This document shows, piece by piece, positions 682-28,588 of a DNA stretch of 29,511 nt; positions within the stretch are counted from its first letter, which is position 1; the number at the start of each line of letters is the position of its first letter. The position numbers and the translations under genes are program-made. Source of the DNA: a virus; IMG/VR virus record IMGVR_UViG_3300032053_002905, positions 1-29,511 of that record, one strand, 5' to 3'. The notes beneath the pieces were generated by a model. The model had not been told where the DNA came from and made no database searches. It saw nothing but the letters and a program-made list of their open reading frames with translations.

Positions 682-1211
682 AGAATCACCTTTATGTCCG
701 CAATCACATTCCAGAAGTGCCTCATGGCAAATTCCAGGTCATCTTTAGGGAATCCCCTGAACTCCTCCTCTATGACATAGGACACATCTTCAAGAATGAA
801 ATCGGCGTGTATCGGGTAGTGCTCAAGGTTGTTATCCTTGAGGTACTTCTTTGTGTAATAGAGAAAGGTCGCTTCCGAGATTGTTCTTTTATGAGTGGGG
901 TCTTGCCACGCTCTTACCGATGTATAGTAAGGGGCTACGAAGGTGACCTTGCCGCCGACTTTTAATATCCTATAGACCTCGTTCATAAACATTATCAGGT
1001 CTGAAGTGTGCTCAATATAATGACGGCAAAATATCTCGTCTATGGAGTTATCCTCGAAAGGCCACGGATACTTCTCTAAATCCCAACACACATCTGCTTG
1101 CGTGCCAACCAGGGTGATGTCTACTCCCAGATAGCCTGCGAGCTTATTGTTGCCGCACGCCAAATCCAGTCTCTTAATCGCACCCTCCTGAGATAAAGTT
1201 GAACTCTCCAT
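666..1211 (-). CDS. Class I SAM-dependent methyltransferase
   Basis: This 181-aa protein has a Rossmann-type SAM-binding start, KRLDLACGNN (motif I, about residues 14-23), then YLGVDI with an acidic end to strand 2. FCRHYIEHTSDLIMFMNEVY and RILKVGGKVTFVAPYY follow, typical of the small-molecule Methyltransf_11 type. No DNA-binding target-recognition domain is present, so a sugar or other small acceptor is more likely than DNA. It overlaps the upstream deacetylase by 38 nt and the downstream glycosyltransferase by 16 nt, which makes a coupled three-gene cassette. The fold is clear; the substrate is unknown. Confidence 0.8.
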   Translation of the reverse strand: MESSTLSQEGAIKRLDLACGNNKLAGYLGVDITLVGTQADVCWDLEKYPWPFEDNSIDEIFCRHYIEHTSDLIMFMNEVYRILKVGGKVTFVAPYYTSVRAWQDPTHKRTISEATFLYYTKKYLKDNNLEHYPIHADFILEDVSYVIEEEFRGFPKDDLEFAMRHFWNVIADIKVILCKKA

Positions 1212-1641
1212 TCTCTATCCCCTCCAATGACTTATCGTAGATATGGGTGTTGATAATATCTCTCTGCTGGAATGTACCCTTTAGCGGTTGTATTCTGAAT
1301 TGATGAGCGATAAACCCGAACCCCAATTCCCTCAGTATCGGGTAGGTCGAGGCGGTCATCTGGAATCCAGGTGCTCGGAAGCCGAACCGCTTGGGCAAAT
1401 ACGGTCTGAGAGCTTTCAATCCTTTCAAGATATATTCCCTCTGGTTAGCCCTCTCGCACTCTGGCGGGTAGGTATGCTCCCAGCCGTGGACGCCGACCTC
1501 TATCCAATCCCTCTTGAGGTACTTACCCGCATCCTTGCCCCTGACGAAGCAGTTGACTTTCAAGGCGGGAACCTTCTCCCTTAGTCTTTCCAGCTTGTAG
1601 AACTCCGCCTCGTTCACGTCATCACAAATCAGGAAGGTCAC
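1174..1641 (-). CDS. Polysaccharide deacetylase-like (NodB-fold) protein
   Basis: The protein is 155 aa. Three motifs recall the NodB/CE4 fold: ICDDVNE (Asp7-Asp8, in place of TFDD), VGVHGWEH (His52 and His56, the metal-binding pair) and FRAPGF (88-93, the third motif). The family removes acetyl groups from N-acetylated sugars using a metal ion. It is shorter than the usual roughly 200-residue domain, so it may be a compact or trimmed version. Translation appears to start at a GTG that shares one base with the preceding stop (TAGTG). No signal peptide is seen, so a cytoplasmic sugar intermediate is a more natural target than an outer polymer. Context links it to the following methyltransferase and glycosyltransferase. 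Confidence 0.7.
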   Translation of the reverse strand: MTFLICDDVNEAEFYKLERLREKVPALKVNCFVRGKDAGKYLKRDWIEVGVHGWEHTYPPECERANQREYILKGLKALRPYLPKRFGFRAPGFQMTASTYPILRELGFGFIAHQFRIQPLKGTFQQRDIINTHIYDKSLEGIENGEFNFISGGCD

Positions 1642-2048
1642 TAAACCCCCATCCTGATTTTAACCTTGTCAATAAACCTCACCCTGTACTGTATTCCAGG
1701 CGTGGAGTCTGCGGGATCGAGTGCCTTCAAGTCTACGGAACTTAACGAGATACTAGACTTTGCTTTTATCTCTATCACCCTCAGCATAGCCTCGTCTGTG
1801 ACTTCCGTATTATGTGGGTCATACTTGGTAGTGAATGTCTCTGCGTCGACTACTGTCAATTCCTCGATGTCTTTCTGGTCGGGCATTTTATCCAGTTCCT
1901 TGTCATCCACTAAGACGACCAGCCAGCATATTCCTGTTTCTAACTCGTCACAGTAAATATGCTCTAGGCAATTTACCCCCAAGAATCCTTCGGGGTAAAT
2001 CATCTTGCCCTTCTCATCTGACCTCACCCTGATTTTTAGCAGTTTCAT
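1641..2048 (-). CDS. Hypothetical protein, 135 aa, after the tail genes
   Basis: I do not recognise this family. The protein is acidic and looks globular, with a beta-rich start (MKLLKIRVRSDEKGKMIYPE) and no membrane segment. A strong TAAGGAGGAAAC site lies directly before the ATG at 2048. It sits between the distal tail protein and the sugar-modifying cassette, and its stop shares one base with the deacetylase GTG. A minor tail or host-recognition role would be a guess based only on position. Confidence 0.7.
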   Translation of the reverse strand: MKLLKIRVRSDEKGKMIYPEGFLGVNCLEHIYCDELETGICWLVVLVDDKELDKMPDQKDIEELTVVDAETFTTKYDPHNTEVTDEAMLRVIEIKAKSSISLSSVDLKALDPADSTPGIQYRVRFIDKVKIRMGV

Positions 2049-2057
2049 GTTTCCTCC

Positions 2058-2159
2058 TTAGATATACCGATTTATTTCAGCCTTAAGGACTTTGTATTTA
2101 TTGATAAGTTCAACGTTTGCCTGATAATAGCGTTGGTTATATTCTCTATGAGAGTCCAT
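2058..2159 (-). CDS. Small protein, 33 aa
   Basis: The ATG at 2159 opens a 33-codon frame reading MDSHREYNQRYYQANVELIN and ending KYKVLKAEINRYI. It fills the gap between the distal tail protein (stop 2 nt upstream) and the 135-aa gene, and its TAA is directly followed by the next gene's AAGGAGG site. The sequence is charged, Tyr-rich and probably one helix. The ribosome site is weak, so coupling to the preceding stop is likely. Function is unknown. Confidence 0.5.
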   Translation of the reverse strand: MDSHREYNQRYYQANVELINKYKVLKAEINRYI

Positions 2160-2161
2160 TT

Positions 2162-2908
2162 TCAAATGAACCGGTTCCTATAGGTGATTTTGAGTGTACC
2201 CAGGTTGGTGCCATGCCCCGTCACCTTTATGTCATTTGCGCCGGGGCCTAATCTTGGGAATTTGCCAGTCACGGTAGCCATGCTCGCAGTGCCCGTTTTC
2301 TTGACCAGCCAGGTTGTCGAATCCACTTCCAGCGTATCTGTAATGAGCAATGCCCCAGTCCATACCAGTGCCTCAGCCGATGAGACGTTCTCTATCGTGA
2401 GTGAGGTCGCCACGGTAGCCCCTGAGAATAGGTAGACCGGCTCAATAGTCGCGTTCCCGCCTGTGGTTTCAACCACGGTGCAGGGTGAAGCAGTAATAGG
2501 GGTATGAGAAGTTGCGACCTCTGAGACATCGTAAGCTCGTGCATCCGGGCAGTAGAAACTGAGTAAGCCCCTCCATGCACCGGGCGACACCAATCCCCCA
2601 GACATATCCCGGAAGTGAGCCAGCCAGTAGCGGTCTGTCAACGCGGTAAGGGATAGTTTGCACGGCTCCTCTTCGTTGAGCATACCCCGCACAATGGATA
2701 ACAATGCGTGTATATCTGTATAGACGGCTGTTGTTGCAATCAGGACTTCCAGTTCTATACTGCGAGGCTGTTGCTTCCCCTTCCAGGTATAAGCCTTTTC
2801 CTGTAGTTGCGCGGCATCTATACCATATTGCAGACTATCCTTATCAGCACGTAGGACTGTGACGCCATAGTTGGCTAATGGTATCGAGTTGAAACTAACT
2901 CCGGCCAT
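2162..2908 (-). CDS. Distal tail (Dit)-like siphovirus tail protein
   Basis: This 248-aa protein directly follows the tape measure gene (14-nt overlap), the normal place for the distal tail protein that forms the hub between tail tube and baseplate. The N-terminal half shows the Sipho_tail pattern: a small beta domain with PRSIELEVLI, a long helix-loop with DIHALLSIVRGML, then YWLAHF and SFYCPDARAYD. The C-terminal half is beta-rich and ends KITYRNRFI, as in Dit beta-sandwich domains. The assignment rests on family pattern plus position. Confidence 0.75.
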   Translation of the reverse strand: MAGVSFNSIPLANYGVTVLRADKDSLQYGIDAAQLQEKAYTWKGKQQPRSIELEVLIATTAVYTDIHALLSIVRGMLNEEEPCKLSLTALTDRYWLAHFRDMSGGLVSPGAWRGLLSFYCPDARAYDVSEVATSHTPITASPCTVVETTGGNATIEPVYLFSGATVATSLTIENVSSAEALVWTGALLITDTLEVDSTTWLVKKTGTASMATVTGKFPRLGPGANDIKVTGHGTNLGTLKITYRNRFI

Positions 2909-5558
2909 AAGCGAACCCCCTCAGTCTTTCCAGTCTGTATAATTCCTGGGCAATACGTTCCACATCTGCCTGTTCCCGCACGACCAGGGAGGCTATATTG
3001 AAGTTGTTGGTATTGGTTATGTTGCTTGCTCCTCCGGCACCCACGGGAGTTATTATCTCTCCACCGTGCACCATTGCCAGGGAAGGAATACCGATGGGGC
3101 CAGGGACGATACCGCCTTTTGCGTATGACATGAATCCCCCGCCTATACCTGCCGCTTGATTGACTACCATTTCAACAACATCTGCGGCAGTCATAACGTG
3201 TCCCGACGGCGCTACCATTCCAATCCAGTTTGAATAAGATGCTGCTATAGTGCCAGCATCAGTAGGGGTTACAGATGGCGCATAGGGCGTTCCTAACATT
3301 GCCGCAGTCTGTGTGGCTGCTCCTATTTCCTGCAATACAGATTGCGCAGTTGTACTTAATTGCGCTGGCATTTGGCTCCCTATATCCGCGAGTTGCGCTT
3401 GCGATAGGTTGTTGAGGGAGGCTTGCGCCTCGGCAAGTCCCCAGGTAGCAGTCGTAGCATCAACCAGAGCACCCATAAGAATGGCTAACTGAATAGCACT
3501 TTCCCCGAACATAAGATTCATCGGATCGGTAGTGGCTAATAGATTACCGATTGCGAGATTGATCTGTTCTACTGATAACTTTGCAGCACTCGCAGGCGTT
3601 AGAAATTCCAAAACACTTATCCCGAGTGTATTGATAGCCCCTGTGGTATCCCCGGCCTTAATCCCTGCATCTGCTAACTTTGTACCTACCTCATCTAGCC
3701 CCATGCCCATCGAGTGTGCTTTGAGTATCACGGAATCATAGGTAGTACCGAGTATTCCTAATATGGAATTTTCAAACTGAGATTGTGTGATTATATCAGC
3801 TATACTGGCGCCATACTCTTTCGAGTATTGAGTGAGGTTGCCCAGTTCCCCTGCATAGATTCTAGCTAACCCAATGGCATCGCCTTCGACCACATTGTTT
3901 TCGGCCATCTTCCGGGATATTTCGTCTACGGCGATACCCCTATCCATCAGGGCGTTGAATATATCCTTGTAATCAAGCCCCAGTACCCCGAGTTGGCTAT
4001 GCTCTAAGGTATACGCATCTTTAAGTTTTACGAGACCGGGGATAAGTTTCTCAATAGCCTCCGAGTAATCATCAAGGTTTTCTCCGGTGGTAACTACTGC
4101 GCCCCCAAGTCCCTCAGTGGAATCGGTCAGATTATCTGTTGCCTCTGTTACCTTTTGTGTTTCCTCTTTTAGTGGAGGCATCCCCATCATAAGGCGTCGG
4201 GTATTTTCCTTAGCCCTATCAGTAGCCTTAGCGTTATCGTCAAGCGCCTCTGTGGTATCTTCAACAGCGGTTGTGACTTTTGGCAACTCGGTACGGCCAG
4301 TTTTCAGGGATTCACACCACGCATAAGTATCATCTACAGCCCCGCGTACCTTATCGGCTGCGCCTTTCATGGCGTTGCCCCAATCCTTATTGAAGAAACC
4401 AACAATATCTCCACCCACATCCAGAATAGAGGCAATCACATTGAGGAATGGCCTGATAGCGTAGTCAATTATGGCCTGGATAGATTCGGCAAATGTCTTC
4501 TTAATCTCAAACCAGAGGTCGGAGAAGAAGCCTGCAATATGATCCCAGTTCTTCCAGAGAGCAATACCCGCAGCTACCAGTGCAGTAGCCGCTATCACTG
4601 CTAACCCTATGGGGCCTGTAGCAACAGTCATCGCCAACCCAAAAGCAGCAAACCCGGTCGCCAGCGTGGGTAGCAATAGCCCCAGCGTCCCCAGGATTAG
4701 CAACAGACCGCCTATGGCTACCACGGCTATACCAATGACCTTGGCAAGCTCGGGGTTAGCCTCAATCCATTCTTTGACCTTTGTTATAATAGGCGTGATG
4801 AAGTCTATCAGCCCCTTCATTGCAGGTGCGAGCAAACCCCCTACAGTATCCGCCAGTTCCCCCATGCTAATCTTCAGGGCTTCCATCTGACCTTGTAGTG
4901 TCTTGGAGTAGGCTTCGGATTGACCAGCGAAGGCTTGGCGAGCTAATGCCCACTTTTCCTCTTCGGTTGCGGCGTCCTTAATTGCCGGGACGAATACTTG
5001 TAGCCCACGCCAATTACCAGCCAGCGCCATACTTACTGCTTGAGATGCCGAAGCAAGGTCTACCCCCTTGCCCCTGGCGATGTCCATTGCCATACCCATC
5101 AATTCCTGCGCCTTGGCTACATCATGTGTGCCCAGGATAAGGCGGGATAGAGAGTCGCGCTGTTCCTCATCGGAGAAACCCAGTTTGAGTTGACTGGCAA
5201 TCACACTTTCTATAGATTGCTTCCGGTCATCATAACTGAGCCCCATATTCGCCATAGCCTGACGGAGTTTGGAGATAGACTGTTCTTCTTCGGCGTACGA
5301 TTTTATGGCTAAAGCGGCAGCACCAAGTATGGCTCCGCCTATGGCAACGGCAACGATAGAGACCTTCTTTAATGCCTCGGCTTTTGCTTTGCCCAACTGT
5401 TCGAAATACTTCTCGCAGTCAGCCGCCTCTTGCTTTGCTGTTGCCACCAGCTTGTCAGAGGCGGTTTTCATCTGTGTCTGGGCGTCGCTAAGTCCTTTAG
5501 TAAGTCCAGAAGAATCAACGCCCAGCTTCAGAAGGGCATCGCCGATTGTCAACGCCAT
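2895..5558 (-). CDS. Tail tape measure protein
   Basis: At 887 aa this is the longest gene here. It lies between the tail assembly chaperones and the Dit-like gene, where tape measure genes sit. The start (ALTIGDALLKLGVDSSGLTK followed by a Lys/Gln/Glu-rich helical stretch) is typical. Hydrophobic segments lie near residues 67-85 and about 270-340 (for example IGIAVVAIGGLLLILGTLG); in such proteins these serve channel formation during DNA ejection. The middle holds repeated LGLDYKDIF / LGTTYDSVI-like helical units. The C-terminus has NITNTNNFNIASLVVREQAD, common at tape measure ends. The ATG immediately follows the chaperone TAA. Protein length should scale with tail length. Confidence 0.93.
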   Translation of the reverse strand: MALTIGDALLKLGVDSSGLTKGLSDAQTQMKTASDKLVATAKQEAADCEKYFEQLGKAKAEALKKVSIVAVAIGGAILGAAALAIKSYAEEEQSISKLRQAMANMGLSYDDRKQSIESVIASQLKLGFSDEEQRDSLSRLILGTHDVAKAQELMGMAMDIARGKGVDLASASQAVSMALAGNWRGLQVFVPAIKDAATEEEKWALARQAFAGQSEAYSKTLQGQMEALKISMGELADTVGGLLAPAMKGLIDFITPIITKVKEWIEANPELAKVIGIAVVAIGGLLLILGTLGLLLPTLATGFAAFGLAMTVATGPIGLAVIAATALVAAGIALWKNWDHIAGFFSDLWFEIKKTFAESIQAIIDYAIRPFLNVIASILDVGGDIVGFFNKDWGNAMKGAADKVRGAVDDTYAWCESLKTGRTELPKVTTAVEDTTEALDDNAKATDRAKENTRRLMMGMPPLKEETQKVTEATDNLTDSTEGLGGAVVTTGENLDDYSEAIEKLIPGLVKLKDAYTLEHSQLGVLGLDYKDIFNALMDRGIAVDEISRKMAENNVVEGDAIGLARIYAGELGNLTQYSKEYGASIADIITQSQFENSILGILGTTYDSVILKAHSMGMGLDEVGTKLADAGIKAGDTTGAINTLGISVLEFLTPASAAKLSVEQINLAIGNLLATTDPMNLMFGESAIQLAILMGALVDATTATWGLAEAQASLNNLSQAQLADIGSQMPAQLSTTAQSVLQEIGAATQTAAMLGTPYAPSVTPTDAGTIAASYSNWIGMVAPSGHVMTAADVVEMVVNQAAGIGGGFMSYAKGGIVPGPIGIPSLAMVHGGEIITPVGAGGASNITNTNNFNIASLVVREQADVERIAQELYRLERLRGFAYGRS

Positions 5559-23363: not shown

Positions 23364-23703
23364 AGACTATTTTAATTGCTCCGCCGTTCTCTCCACTTAT
23401 CTCATGTGTATCCTTGACCTTGCCCTCTACTCTATCAAGTCCCTCTCGGATAGCGGTTATGTCGCCCTTGCCCATCTTAGTAAATAGTGCCTTGGCTATC
23501 AGCATTGCGCCTGTAGGATAGCAGGGCATCTTCTGCCACTTCTTGAGTATCTTCTCGGGGTTATTCTCTACCAGTTCACGAAGTAGCATGGAGACGCTTT
23601 GCGGCTTCTTAGGGCTGCCATTGGGATTGCCACTCTGCCCAGGCACAAATCGCCCCTTTAAGTCTCTGTCTCCCTGTTGTGCAGGATTTCCGTTAGTTAC
23701 CAT
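23257..23703 (-). CDS. Probable terminase small subunit (DUF5681-like N-terminus)
   Basis: The 148-aa product starts with KGRFVPGQSGNPNGSPKK (about 16-33), the DUF5681-type lead-in found in phage proteins before terminase, then a helical central part (VSMLLRELVENNPEKILKKW and GAMLIAKALFTKMGKGD). Its position directly before the large subunit supports a DNA-recognition role in packaging. Its last 35 residues overlap the large-subunit gene and are low in order. It starts 11 nt inside the methyltransferase gene. Confidence 0.72.
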   Translation of the reverse strand: MVTNGNPAQQGDRDLKGRFVPGQSGNPNGSPKKPQSVSMLLRELVENNPEKILKKWQKMPCYPTGAMLIAKALFTKMGKGDITAIREGLDRVEGKVKDTHEISGENGGAIKIVYEIINGNTAQKNTDISTQPQLPSQDSSKHRRGTQL

Positions 23704-24694
23704 GTTCTATCAGTTCGGCTTTCTTGCCCGTGTAATCCAATATATTAGTCCTGATATGTTCTGCTATTGCTTTCATAAGATTCGGGGGTACGCTGTTGCC
23801 GATGCGCTCTTTGCATTCATCCTTAGTACCTTTAAAAATAAAATCAGTAGGGAAGCCCTGTATAATACCTGCCTCTTGAATAGTTAGCAATCTAGGGGTC
23901 TGCCAATGCCAGTTTAAGTGTGATTTAATTTGTGTTGGGCTTGGTTTATTAGGGTCTAGTCTAACTGACTGATATGAACCTACATACCGGCAAGTCTCTC
24001 GGAGAGACTTGCCGGGTTTGCTTTTTTGCCATGCCTCTATAACTTGCTTCTCGTGTTTTTCTGGATTTCCTACGGCTAACTTGCCTATTGCTTCTTTAGC
24101 TGTTACTGGTATTACTTGCGGCTTTGGGTGGCTCGGATCAATCTTTAAATCTTCACGAACACCAATGATAATTACCCGTTCCCTTGACTGAGGGACATTA
24201 AAGTACATGGCATTTAATACTTCACCTTTTGCCTTATAGCCGCATTCCCGCAAAGTCTTAATAATAGCCAGGTAAGCCTGTTTCATACACCCCTTGACCA
24301 TGCCGGTCACGTTCTCCATGACAAATACTTTCGGCTGAAGTTCCTTGACCAGTCGGGCATATTCCTTAAAAAGAGAATTGCGGGGGTCGTCCCATTTTCG
24401 TTTCCCTGCCGTGCTGAATCCCTGACATGGCGGTGAACCATCCAATATATCAAGTTCGCCCTTCTTTATCCCTGCCAACTTCATACACTCTGCGCCTGTC
24501 AGCTTTGCAATATCACCATGATAGACAGGTACGTCCGGGAAGTTAAGCCGGAAGGTTGCAACTGCATTATCATCCCATTCGACAGCTAAAAGTTCCTTGA
24601 ATCCTGCCATCTGATAGCCGAGAGATGAACCTCCACAACCAGCAAATAGACTAATTACTGTCGACTTTACCACTTGAAGCCACACTTGGGGCAT
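23693..24694 (-). CDS. C5-cytosine DNA methyltransferase (second copy)
   Basis: The 333-aa product has SAM motif I ISLFAGCGGSSLGY (14-27), the catalytic DGSPPCQGFSTAGKRK (85-100, Cys90), the ENVTGM motif IV and a C-terminal IGNSVPPNLMKAIAEHI (motif X). The target-recognition region is short. An alternative GTG start at 24672 would remove the long overlap with the ParB-like gene. No restriction enzyme lies next to it, so it is an orphan, likely protecting phage DNA. The extremely short spacing to the terminase small subunit places it inside the packaging operon. Confidence 0.93.
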   Translation of the reverse strand: MPQVWLQVVKSTVISLFAGCGGSSLGYQMAGFKELLAVEWDDNAVATFRLNFPDVPVYHGDIAKLTGAECMKLAGIKKGELDILDGSPPCQGFSTAGKRKWDDPRNSLFKEYARLVKELQPKVFVMENVTGMVKGCMKQAYLAIIKTLRECGYKAKGEVLNAMYFNVPQSRERVIIIGVREDLKIDPSHPKPQVIPVTAKEAIGKLAVGNPEKHEKQVIEAWQKSKPGKSLRETCRYVGSYQSVRLDPNKPSPTQIKSHLNWHWQTPRLLTIQEAGIIQGFPTDFIFKGTKDECKERIGNSVPPNLMKAIAEHIRTNILDYTGKKAELIEHGN

Positions 24695-26434: not shown

Positions 26435-26494
26435 CCTCCCTTATGACGTTTCTATACCAGCTCCCCTTATTGCGCCTTGCTGTCACTGTTTAGA
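26435..26494 (-). repeat. Shared gene-linker repeat, copy A
   Basis: On the minus strand this copy holds AACAGTGACA, an AAGGC block and GTATAGAAACGTCATAAGGG, ending in the ribosome site of the helix-turn-helix gene. Its first part encodes the last residues of the radical-SAM protein (LNSDSKAQ), whereas the matching part of copy B is non-coding. Confidence 0.85.
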
Positions 26495-27366
26495 CATTCA
26501 GCTTCGGTTGTAGGAATGAGCACGGATCGCCTTGAGCCAAATTCCTCAAAGGGTATTCCCATGTAATAATTATGCGACCAATAATCCATAAATCGTACGA
26601 GTTCCTTATGTGTCCAGTTAGGATGAATATAGGAGTTCTTTTTTGATGTATCTTTAGGCTGGTATCGCATGGGGAATTGCAGTAACCCCATTTTCCGTAC
26701 TGTACGAAGACGATACAGTGCATCATCTGGTGTATCATTAAAGCCTATCAAGACATAAACCCTGACCAGGTTTTTAGGTATATGCTTAACTAGAATATCA
26801 ATCCCGTTCATAAAAGGGCTTGCATAATGCACATTGTCCCAAGATAGGCGTAAGCATTTCAGATTGAGTTCGGCTAATCGTGAGGCGTGATAAGAAGTCA
26901 GAAGACGAACATCTAAGCCCTGATTGAAGTCAATGCCCTCTAGGGGTTTCAGTTTATCAATAACCCTATCGAAGTGTGCCCTTGAGCAAGCCAGTAGGTT
27001 GTTATCACAGACGATGGGGCGAGGCACGAAATCAGGGATTTCTTTAATGTCTCCCTCTATATCTGGCACAAGACAAAATGGGCATTTACGGATGCAACCT
27101 CGGCTTGTGAATGTAGCATTAGGATTATGGTGAGACAATGCATCTATATCGCCATTCACTTCGGCAACTTCCTCGAATAAAAGTGGGTTGTACTTAATCG
27201 CTGGCCCCCCAACCTTGACCTTCATCCCCATCTGTCTATACCAAGCCACCTTCCCGTAAGCCTGTTGGATTTGCCACGAGAACACCGCAGAAACAAAGGC
27301 TGTATCCCCTTCCACCCAGTCAACTAACCCATTCTGCCAGCCTTTATGATTCTCGATGATCTTCAT
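26467..27366 (-). CDS. Phage radical-SAM protein
   Basis: The 299-aa product has FTSRGCIRKCPFCLVPDIEG (86-105) with Cys91, Cys95 and Cys98, the CxxxCxxC site for a [4Fe-4S] cluster that cleaves SAM. The N-terminal region (TAFVSAVFSWQIQQAY and VKVGGPAIKYNP, 22-61) recalls B12-dependent radical-SAM proteins, but no DxHxxG cobalamin motif is seen. After the barrel (NQGLDVRLLTSYHASRLAEL, LVRVYVLIGFNDTP) the end has HPNWTHKELVRFMDYWS. I recall related uncharacterised genes in many phages; substrate unknown. AAAGGAGAAGG precedes the ATG. Confidence 0.85.
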   Translation of the reverse strand: MKIIENHKGWQNGLVDWVEGDTAFVSAVFSWQIQQAYGKVAWYRQMGMKVKVGGPAIKYNPLLFEEVAEVNGDIDALSHHNPNATFTSRGCIRKCPFCLVPDIEGDIKEIPDFVPRPIVCDNNLLACSRAHFDRVIDKLKPLEGIDFNQGLDVRLLTSYHASRLAELNLKCLRLSWDNVHYASPFMNGIDILVKHIPKNLVRVYVLIGFNDTPDDALYRLRTVRKMGLLQFPMRYQPKDTSKKNSYIHPNWTHKELVRFMDYWSHNYYMGIPFEEFGSRRSVLIPTTEAECLNSDSKAQ

Positions 27367-27421: not shown

Positions 27422-28588
27422 TCATAGGGGGAGTACACTTCCGGTTCCCACTATCGCCTTGATAATCTGATAAGCTACCTGTGGCACTATGGCGTTTCCG
27501 AGTGCTTTAAGTCTGTCCACCCTATTGGGAATCCCATCATCCACTCCACAAAAGCGGGTTGCAACTTCATACCAGTTCTCTGACCATCCTGGAATATTAT
27601 TGCATTCGGCAAGGCATCCTCCTGATATTGACCTCTCTGAGATTGCCCCTTGTAGTCCCTGTTCTGTGGAGTTGGCAACATCCCTATCTGTTCGGCAAGG
27701 CAACCTGCTACCCAATGTCTCCCTACACTCGCTCTGTATGCTGTCCGCTTCTCGTATCTGTCCTCTCCCCCCTCGATGTTCACCGTTGAGGGCGTTAGCA
27801 ACATTGCTAATTTTTTGTTGATTTTTGTCTGCCATTCCCCGTTGCTCTTGTTGTGGCAAGCGGGATTGTCCGAGGTTCCCAATACTGTGGGCAACAATCC
27901 AGACTCTATCCCTTCGGTGCGGGGCGTTGACGGCGCAAGCTGGAATAACCAAAGGGGGTGCAACCTCATACCCTGCTTCTTTAAGATTGTCAAGGATTCT
28001 TCCAATGATTGTGGGATAGATTGTAATTTGTTTGATTTTGTCGATTTTATCGTTGAATAGAGAGGTTTGGTTTTCCATTTCAGTCTTACTGTCTGGGAAT
28101 ACCATGCTGAGGATTCCAGCAACATTCTCAAGCAATACCCAATCGGGCTTGACAGCTTCAATAACTGCGAGAGTTTGAGGCCAGAGGTAACGACTGTCTG
28201 CCGAGCCTTTTCTTCGTCCTGCGGCCGAGAAGGGCTGGCAGGGGAATCCTGCGGTGAGGAGAAGTTTATCTGCTGTGTCAATCCTACCTGTGCTAGTCGC
28301 CCTGTCTCCTTGTCGTATGCCCTCTCGCCTATCTTGGCAGGTTCGCCCTCTTTGGTTTGCAATCGCTTCGCTGTAACTCCTGGCTCTTGACTTGAGGGCG
28401 TTCTCAACAATCCCCCTGATTTCTTCGACATTGTTCACATCCTCTACAATCGGCACATCAGGCCAGTGCTCTCTCAAAACCTTCTGGCAGAACTTATCAA
28501 TTTCGCAGAAACAGATAGTTTCAATACCCAGCCAATCACAGGCAAGAGAGAAGCCACCGATGCCACTGAACAAGTCAAGGTGCTTCAC
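27422..28588 (-). CDS. C5-cytosine DNA methyltransferase (first copy)
   Basis: The 388-aa product starts (GTG) MKHLDLFSGIGGFSLACDWL, motif I. The catalytic loop LLTAGFPCQPFSAAGRRKGS has Cys117; LLENVAGIL (152-160) is motif IV; PHRRDRVWIVA is motif VIII; and RVDRLKALGNAIVPQVAYQI is motif X. Between the second SAM motif and the catalytic loop, residues about 54-108 form an Arg/Ser/Thr-rich insertion (ALKSRARSYSEAIANQRGRT) not usual for this family. The same DNA carries a long open second frame. No restriction gene is nearby. GGGAGGGGAA of the shared linker provides the ribosome site. Confidence 0.93.
   Translation of the reverse strand: MKHLDLFSGIGGFSLACDWLGIETICFCEIDKFCQKVLREHWPDVPIVEDVNNVEEIRGIVENALKSRARSYSEAIANQRGRTCQDRREGIRQGDRATSTGRIDTADKLLLTAGFPCQPFSAAGRRKGSADSRYLWPQTLAVIEAVKPDWVLLENVAGILSMVFPDSKTEMENQTSLFNDKIDKIKQITIYPTIIGRILDNLKEAGYEVAPPLVIPACAVNAPHRRDRVWIVAHSIGNLGQSRLPQQEQRGMADKNQQKISNVANALNGEHRGGRGQIREADSIQSECRETLGSRLPCRTDRDVANSTEQGLQGAISERSISGGCLAECNNIPGWSENWYEVATRFCGVDDGIPNRVDRLKALGNAIVPQVAYQIIKAIVGTGSVLPL
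27487..28431 (-). CDS. Candidate overprinted 314-aa ORF inside the methyltransferase gene (+1 frame)
   Basis: This frame has an ATG at 28431 with GAGG nine bases upstream and stays open for 314 codons, wholly inside the methyltransferase gene. It does not look like a random shadow: it contains GLLRTPSSQEPGV, AYDKETGRLAQVGLTQQINF, YCLRMLLESSAWYSQTVRLK, LFQLAPSTPRTEGIESGLLP, MLPTPQNRDYKGQSQRGQYQ and LQPAFVEWMMGFPIGWTDLK. I recognise these as the motif set of many phage proteins labelled methyltransferase-related, in particular the (L/P)xFVEWMMGFPxGWTDL end. Independent expression is not shown; it may be a protein in its own right or a product of frame switching. Confidence 0.5.
   Translation of the reverse strand: MSKKSGGLLRTPSSQEPGVTAKRLQTKEGEPAKIGERAYDKETGRLAQVGLTQQINFSSPQDSPASPSRPQDEEKARQTVVTSGLKLSQLLKLSSPIGYCLRMLLESSAWYSQTVRLKWKTKPLYSTIKSTKSNKLQSIPQSLEESLTILKKQGMRLHPLWLFQLAPSTPRTEGIESGLLPTVLGTSDNPACHNKSNGEWQTKINKKLAMLLTPSTVNIEGGEDRYEKRTAYRASVGRHWVAGCLAEQIGMLPTPQNRDYKGQSQRGQYQEDALPNAIIFQDGQRTGMKLQPAFVEWMMGFPIGWTDLKHSETP

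Follow-up and report, generated by a model that had tools for sequence, protein, structure and literature searches.

The gene for the small polypeptide of the cytosine-C5 methyltransferase M.EcoHK31I is nested out of frame in the gene for the large one, and the multispecific phage C5 methyltransferases of the SPbeta and phi3T type carry tandem short modules between motifs VIII and IX. Previous work established that C5 methyltransferases can consist of two polypeptides. In M.AquI, catalytic motifs I–VIII are on one chain and the distal variable region and motif IX are on the other; in M.EcoHK31I, the small subunit carries motif IX alone, motifs I–VIII and X are on the large polypeptide, and the target-recognition region (TRD) is predicted in the large subunit (PMC3404938). 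The naturally split M.EcoHK31I has been put to use (PMC3439449). An out-of-frame gene is also known from the ShiLan domain, a hidden HNH endonuclease in a phage methylase (PMC11855218). In the literature searched we found no account of the phage family described here as a nested split enzyme, the ShiLan report being the nearest.

The window, i.e., the whole 29,511-nucleotide stretch analysed, is a 29.5 kb virus record whose tail, portal, terminase and capsid-maturation genes identify it as a tailed phage. ORF1, a C5 cytosine methyltransferase gene (27422..28588), starts with GTG at 28588 and encodes 388 aa; it, like every feature of the window given below, is on the minus strand. ORF1 matched PF00145 (4e-35) and phrog_363 (8e-69). 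ORF2 (27487..28431) is nested in the +1 frame of ORF1 and encodes 314 aa from an ATG at 28431, with GAGG at 28441..28444, 9 nt upstream, read from the sequence as a candidate Shine-Dalgarno element. The second frame of 314 codons that the first-pass annotation reported, with its ATG and ribosome site, was thus recovered as described, and the motifs quoted for it were found in ORF2. The window meets the criterion for a nested arrangement, a small-subunit gene out of frame inside the large one. We think it probable that the locus encodes a split cytosine-C5 DNA methyltransferase with ORF1 as its alpha and ORF2 as its beta subunit; translation in vivo, heterodimer formation, the need for ORF2 in methylation and cassette specificity are inferred. 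A radical SAM domain protein (phrog_9298, 5.8e-38; 26467-27366) adjoins the methyltransferase directly downstream. The window also has a second, canonical C5 methyltransferase (23693-24694; PF00145, 4e-71) with motif IX, RLLTIQEAGIIQGFP, in its own frame; it is without a long +1 frame and was used as a control.

ORF1 aligned with M.HhaI through motif VIII and again at motif X. Alignment A2 placed motif I, DLFSGIGG, at residues 5-12 (28553..28576), motif IV, GFPCQPFS, with the catalytic Cys, at residues 114-121 (28226..28249), motif VIII, HRRDRVWIVA, at residues 224-233 (27890..27919), and, in ORF1's own frame, motif X, LKALGNAIVPQ, in which GN is invariant, at residues 360-370 (27479..27511). 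ORF1 therefore satisfies the requirement that a C5 methyltransferase have motifs I–VIII in a single frame. In the AlphaFold2 model the catalytic core had pLDDT values above 90 and motif X lay at a helix (369-385). Residues 245-335 (27584..27856), at the place of the TRD and motif IX, had pLDDT values below 50 and are a predicted disordered linker, with substitutions following the ORF2 frame. Neither the M.HhaI alignment nor the AlphaFold model gave a recognisable TRD or motif IX in the ORF1 frame, and ORF1 alone falls short of the criterion that its frame also encode motif IX and a structured TRD. The methyltransferase frame had been called complete from motif I to motif X; that description holds for motifs I–VIII and X, but not for the TRD and motif IX, the latter being read in the ORF2 frame.

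Whether ORF2 is a gene was addressed in three ways. In the shuffle test, each ORF1 gene had its synonymous codons permuted 100 times, which leaves its protein as it was, and the +1 translations, real and shuffled, were scored with an ORF2 profile built without the tested locus. The longest +1 open stretch of the window was 315 codons, versus a shuffle mean of 102, and none of the 100 shuffles reached 315; the family score was 224.9 bits, versus a null mean of 59.0 and a maximum of 99.5. The real sequence exceeded all 100 shuffles at 82 of 82 loci (mean 145.6 vs 38.8 bits). When only the conserved core of ORF2, at about residues 62-178 opposite ORF1 motifs IV–VIII (27898..28248; alignment A1), was scored, the means were 57 and 27 bits, and 69 of 122 loci were above all shuffles. 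The second test was a survey of +1 stops in 182 non-redundant loci, counted per 1000 codons along the methyltransferase profile columns. Values were 28-107 before column 60, 6-7 in columns 61-84, 0 in columns 85-204, no more than 0.6 up to column 264, and 38-114 beyond, i.e., the +1 frame is nearly stop-free exactly across ORF2. Frequent +1 stops in homologous methyltransferase genes, which would have refuted the dual-coding proposal, were absent from columns 85-264.

In the third test, mismatches in pairwise ungapped DNA alignments were sorted by methyltransferase codon position 1/2/3; constraint was gauged by this position-specific substitution in place of a codon-model dN/dS. The pairs are not phylogenetically independent, so the rates are descriptive and the test is the contrast among regions of the same genes. 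Mismatch rates showed the usual wobble pattern upstream (.22/.14/.52) and downstream (.24/.12/.45) of ORF2, and in the motif IV–VIII part (.28/.18/.43) the methyltransferase frame was dominant. In the TRD region between motifs VIII and IX the rates were.33/.19/.18, and in the motif IX stretch just after it,.39/.12/.19. Because position 1 of the methyltransferase frame is the wobble position of ORF2, ORF2 is the dominant selected frame in these two stretches. Control canonical C5 methyltransferases, kin of the window's second methyltransferase, kept position 3 highest throughout and had no long +1 frame. Shine-Dalgarno-like words were enriched ahead of +1 starts in the relatives (150/233 vs 61/233), which argues for independent initiation of ORF2; 83 of the 233 loci had no such word at a +1 start. 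All three tests favor the dual coding proposed from the first reading of the sequence, the constraint on the +1 frame resting on the shuffles and the mismatch pattern together, and the criterion for an overlapping gene, that the second frame be constrained beyond what the ORF1 frame forces, is met. ORF2 is a genuine, conserved gene under protein-level selection, and in its C-terminal half the methyltransferase frame is the passenger.

The family of ORF2 is large. A profile search matched residues 50-308 to phrog_1008, 'DNA methyltransferase' (E 7e-22), and tblastn found relatives in 54 phage records, bearing out the likeness to phage proteins labelled methyltransferase that had been noted at first reading. 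By tblastn, ORF2 was 27-34% identical over most of its length to sequences in Paenibacillus phages and a few others, and in Paenibacillus phage Shelly the relative had already been annotated by the depositors as 'g55 internal gene'. No family match was found in Pfam, NCBIfam or PADLOC, and a sequence search of the PDB gave nothing significant. A profile comparison of ORF1 and ORF2 revealed no similarity, as one would expect of distinct parts of an enzyme; this adds no support. For a pairing test, the ORF1 alignment was the sole query against phage contigs, and the best 80 loci were kept. ORF2 was in the +1 frame in 80/80, that frame being typically open for 200-330 codons and the third frame mostly for fewer than 80; the split-enzyme criterion that the two genes always occur together is met for these loci. 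Conversely, nearly all relatives found by ORF2 overlap an open methyltransferase frame of which ORF2 is the +1 frame. ORF2 is conserved across hundreds of phages. Among cultured phages, the nested form is found in those of Klebsiella, Escherichia (for instance E. coli phage Hrm2), Rhodobacter, Salmonella and Lacticaseibacillus; a Bacteroides plasmid record that contains phage genes has it as well. One locus (L026, 2011-3776) has a tandem pair of methyltransferase genes with a nested +1 ORF2 in each. In three others (L015, 2273-3046; L193, 675-1284; L152, 2519-3332) ORF2 is broken by a stop or has its parts in different frames, which may reflect decay or sequencing error.

The C-terminal end of ORF2, LQPAFVEWMMGFPIGW, is the equivalent of motif IX of M.HhaI. 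The motif itself, LQPAFVEWMMGFPIGWT, is at residues 290-306 (27514..27564), and the pattern L-x-P-x-[FW]-V-E-W-[ML]-M-G-[FY]-P-x-x-W-T describes this end in 123 sequences, with L, P, M, G and P nearly invariant. The assignment was made through relatives, L157, L163, L166 and L169 from a mostly actinobacterial group and the viral L076, in which the ORF2-type C-terminal peptide stands in the methyltransferase frame just before motif X. A profile of these in-frame relatives aligned the peptide with M.HhaI motif IX, RKLHPRECARVMGYPDSY, and then motif X with motif X. The motif IX alignment is short and weak alone (domain score 2.4 bits), but position and order fit, and in L157 the PF00145 match extends to the end of the profile. 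Against the window's canonical methyltransferase the profile alignment of the in-frame relatives ended at motif VIII; motif IX was aligned only against M.HhaI. The split-enzyme criterion of motif IX on a second, cognate polypeptide is met. The model of ORF2 was of low confidence (mean pLDDT 60.7, pTM 0.28), better only in parts of the core and in the motif IX helix, and a fold search with it gave no PDB match, so that a TRD fold is not shown; the alignment used for structure prediction left out three rows from the phages collection. Sequence comparison makes the C-terminal half of ORF2 a homologue of the half of C5 methyltransferases that holds the TRD and motif IX.

Between the core and motif IX, ORF2 usually has 1-4 blocks opening with LPTP-like words. 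These cassettes, 30-50 residues long and shuffled among relatives, stand ahead of motif IX where a TRD belongs; in the window they occupy residues 178-288 (27568..27900), as delimited by the codon-position pattern and by cassettes common to relatives. ORF2s whose cores are only about 30-47% identical have in common blocks of 25 residues or more that are 60-80% identical, and the positions of these blocks in the arrays differ. A further cassette is N-terminal (codons 7-56, 28264..28413) and coincides with the Arg/Ser/Thr-rich insertion at ORF1 residues 54-108, which the first-pass annotation had noticed and had suggested might be forced by the second frame. The insertion is real. At 75% DNA identity, codons 7-56 matched recognition-region cassettes of L089 and L010, with mismatches by ORF2 codon position of 9/3/26 and 10/5/22, respectively. 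Given this ORF2-codon pattern, the insertion is a displaced ORF2 cassette that has been kept in the ORF2 frame, and the suggested forcing of the insertion by the second frame is supported. From position, modularity and analogy with the multispecific phage C5 methyltransferases we infer that the LPTP cassettes may be target-recognition modules, and there are no functional data on a role in specificity. A broader proposal is possible, and we rate its chances a little short of even: a phage-wide class of methyltransferases with a DNA-recognition code in a shifted frame, in which interchangeable LPTP modules in the nested beta subunit, one for each target, would be shuffled regardless of the alpha frame, there only a passenger linker, and could also move to other sites, as in the window. 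In two Streptomyces loci (L156, 2152-3189; L170, 2182-3348) the cassettes are partly in the methyltransferase frame and partly in the +1 frame, as if the array can switch frame. Two Bifidobacterium loci (L165 and L168, about 1031-3130) are methyltransferase-like with an unusually long span from motif VIII to FVEWMMG and LPTP-like words in more than one frame; their layout was not resolved.

Other natural versions of the pair are known from annotated phages. In mycobacteriophages RedBird, LHTSCC, Rebeuca, JangDynasty and Bumblebee11 and in Arthrobacter phage Juno112, alpha ends immediately past motif VIII, and LPTP cassettes and motifs IX and X are on a +1 gene that overlaps it in part; the beta genes of these six phages are also labelled DNA methyltransferase or methylase. 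The alpha/beta pairs are gp71/gp72 in RedBird and gp41/gp42 in Juno112. RedBird gp72 matched phrog_1008 (6.5e-75) and also the C-terminal part of complete-methyltransferase families. PHappiness gp71 is a single polypeptide that joins alpha to LPTP cassettes and motifs IX and X; it matched phrog_116 over the full length and phrog_1008 at the C-terminal end. Since beta is found nested in, partly overlapping or fused with the same partner, it is best read as a subunit of that partner. The database matches are not merely mistranslated methyltransferase genes, an outcome that would have told against dual coding; in some phages they are real separate genes.

In the split enzyme proposed here, alpha would be the AdoMet-binding catalytic domain with motifs I–VIII and X. 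Translation of beta would begin within alpha, in the +1 frame, from a ribosome site of its own; beta would supply motif IX and the target-recognition region, a chain of swappable LPTP cassettes. The two polypeptides would assemble into one enzyme methylating phage DNA, presumably to counter host restriction. Along the recognition-region stretch, beta would be the selected reading and the alpha frame an open, disordered linker leading to motif X. The suggestion that ORF2 is a conserved overprinted partner of the methyltransferase is supported as to the partner, but ORF2 is not a novel overprint along its whole length, its C-terminal half being the TRD/motif IX homologue. The evidence is from computation only, with no direct sign of translation or of a complex.

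The other readings differ in how they account for ORF2. It might be a conserved overprinted protein with another role, as a regulator or inhibitor or in anti-restriction or repair, and have nothing but its DNA in common with a methyltransferase that needs no partner. Selection as a protein and the lack of a Pfam, NCBIfam or PDB match are what such a protein would show. We nevertheless consider this unlikely, given that the motif IX and TRD region is missing from ORF1 and present in ORF2, that members of the beta family have motifs IX and X in the split phages, and that one member is joined to alpha in PHappiness. Programmed ribosomal frameshifting could instead join the catalytic part of ORF1 and the recognition part of ORF2 in one polypeptide, as the change of selected frame just past motif VIII and the one-frame fusion in relatives such as PHappiness would allow. 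Against this, the upstream core of ORF2 is constrained and stop-free back to near a start codon, ribosome sites are enriched at +1 starts, and two shifts would be needed in the window, where motif X is back in the ORF1 frame. The constrained core, the absence of +1 stops and the ribosome-site enrichment leave frameshifting disfavored, and we regard it as quite improbable.

The similarity of +1 translations might also be a passive echo of methyltransferase conservation, with ORF2 no gene at all. Conserved ORF1 motifs do limit the +1 translation, and shuffled genes still averaged about 39 bits, but the real sequence was above all shuffles at every one of the 82 loci, the codon-position pattern is reversed in the TRD region, beta is a separate gene in other phages, and the canonical methyltransferase control was negative. 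On the shuffles, the codon positions and that control we rejected the echo, to which we give hardly any credence. There is precedent for an out-of-frame homing endonuclease insertion like the ShiLan domain, an HNH gene in a phage methylase (PMC11855218), but ORF2 is without an HNH or other nuclease match, is present in every close relative rather than sporadically, and overlaps conserved catalytic motifs instead of forming one dispensable insertion. A hidden HNH element was rejected for the lack of a nuclease match and the universality in relatives, and we see next to no prospect of its being correct.

The split-enzyme reading, if true, means that many phage genes labelled as complete methyltransferases encode catalytic subunits only. 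A clone of the annotated ORF with recoded codons would then lack an intact partner and test falsely negative. Should the cassettes be recognition modules, they would be parts at hand for work on how methylation targets are diversified by phages. The locus is also an unusually clean test case for dual coding, as different parts of the gene are selected in different frames, and split, nested and fused forms exist in nature for comparison. To our knowledge, long same-strand gene nesting with strong selection on both frames is rare outside small viruses; here, one stretch of DNA appears to encode, as nested products, both halves of an enzyme.

Among known systems, the window resembles M.EcoHK31I, and M.EaeI, in dividing the motifs between a small chain with motif IX and a large chain with motifs I–VIII and X. 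Unlike in that enzyme, selection on the recognition-region stretch acts in the nested frame, and the stretch is made up of shuffled cassettes; the TRD of M.EcoHK31I is predicted in the large subunit (PMC3404938), a prediction that counts against a split enzyme with its TRD on beta. Further differences are that the window showed no restriction enzyme partner and that its family occurs in many phages. With M.AquI the window has in common motifs I–VIII on one chain and the distal variable region and motif IX on the other. The gp71/gp72 type of the mycobacteriophages is M.AquI-like, with motif X also on beta, whereas the window keeps motif X on alpha and has the whole of beta inside the alpha gene. 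By profile match (7e-22) ORF2 belongs to phrog_1008, which includes RedBird gp72; some members have motif X and reach past alpha, and the family has had only a general label so far. The modules of the multispecific SPbeta and phi3T enzymes are in the catalytic frame, whereas those of the window are in the +1 frame and their role is unproven. The ShiLan domain is a sporadic homing insertion that encodes a nuclease, not a methyltransferase part, and only its out-of-frame position is like that of ORF2. In sum, the window works like the known split C5 methyltransferases, and what is new is the recognition-region cassettes in a nested frame, their modularity and their breadth among phages.
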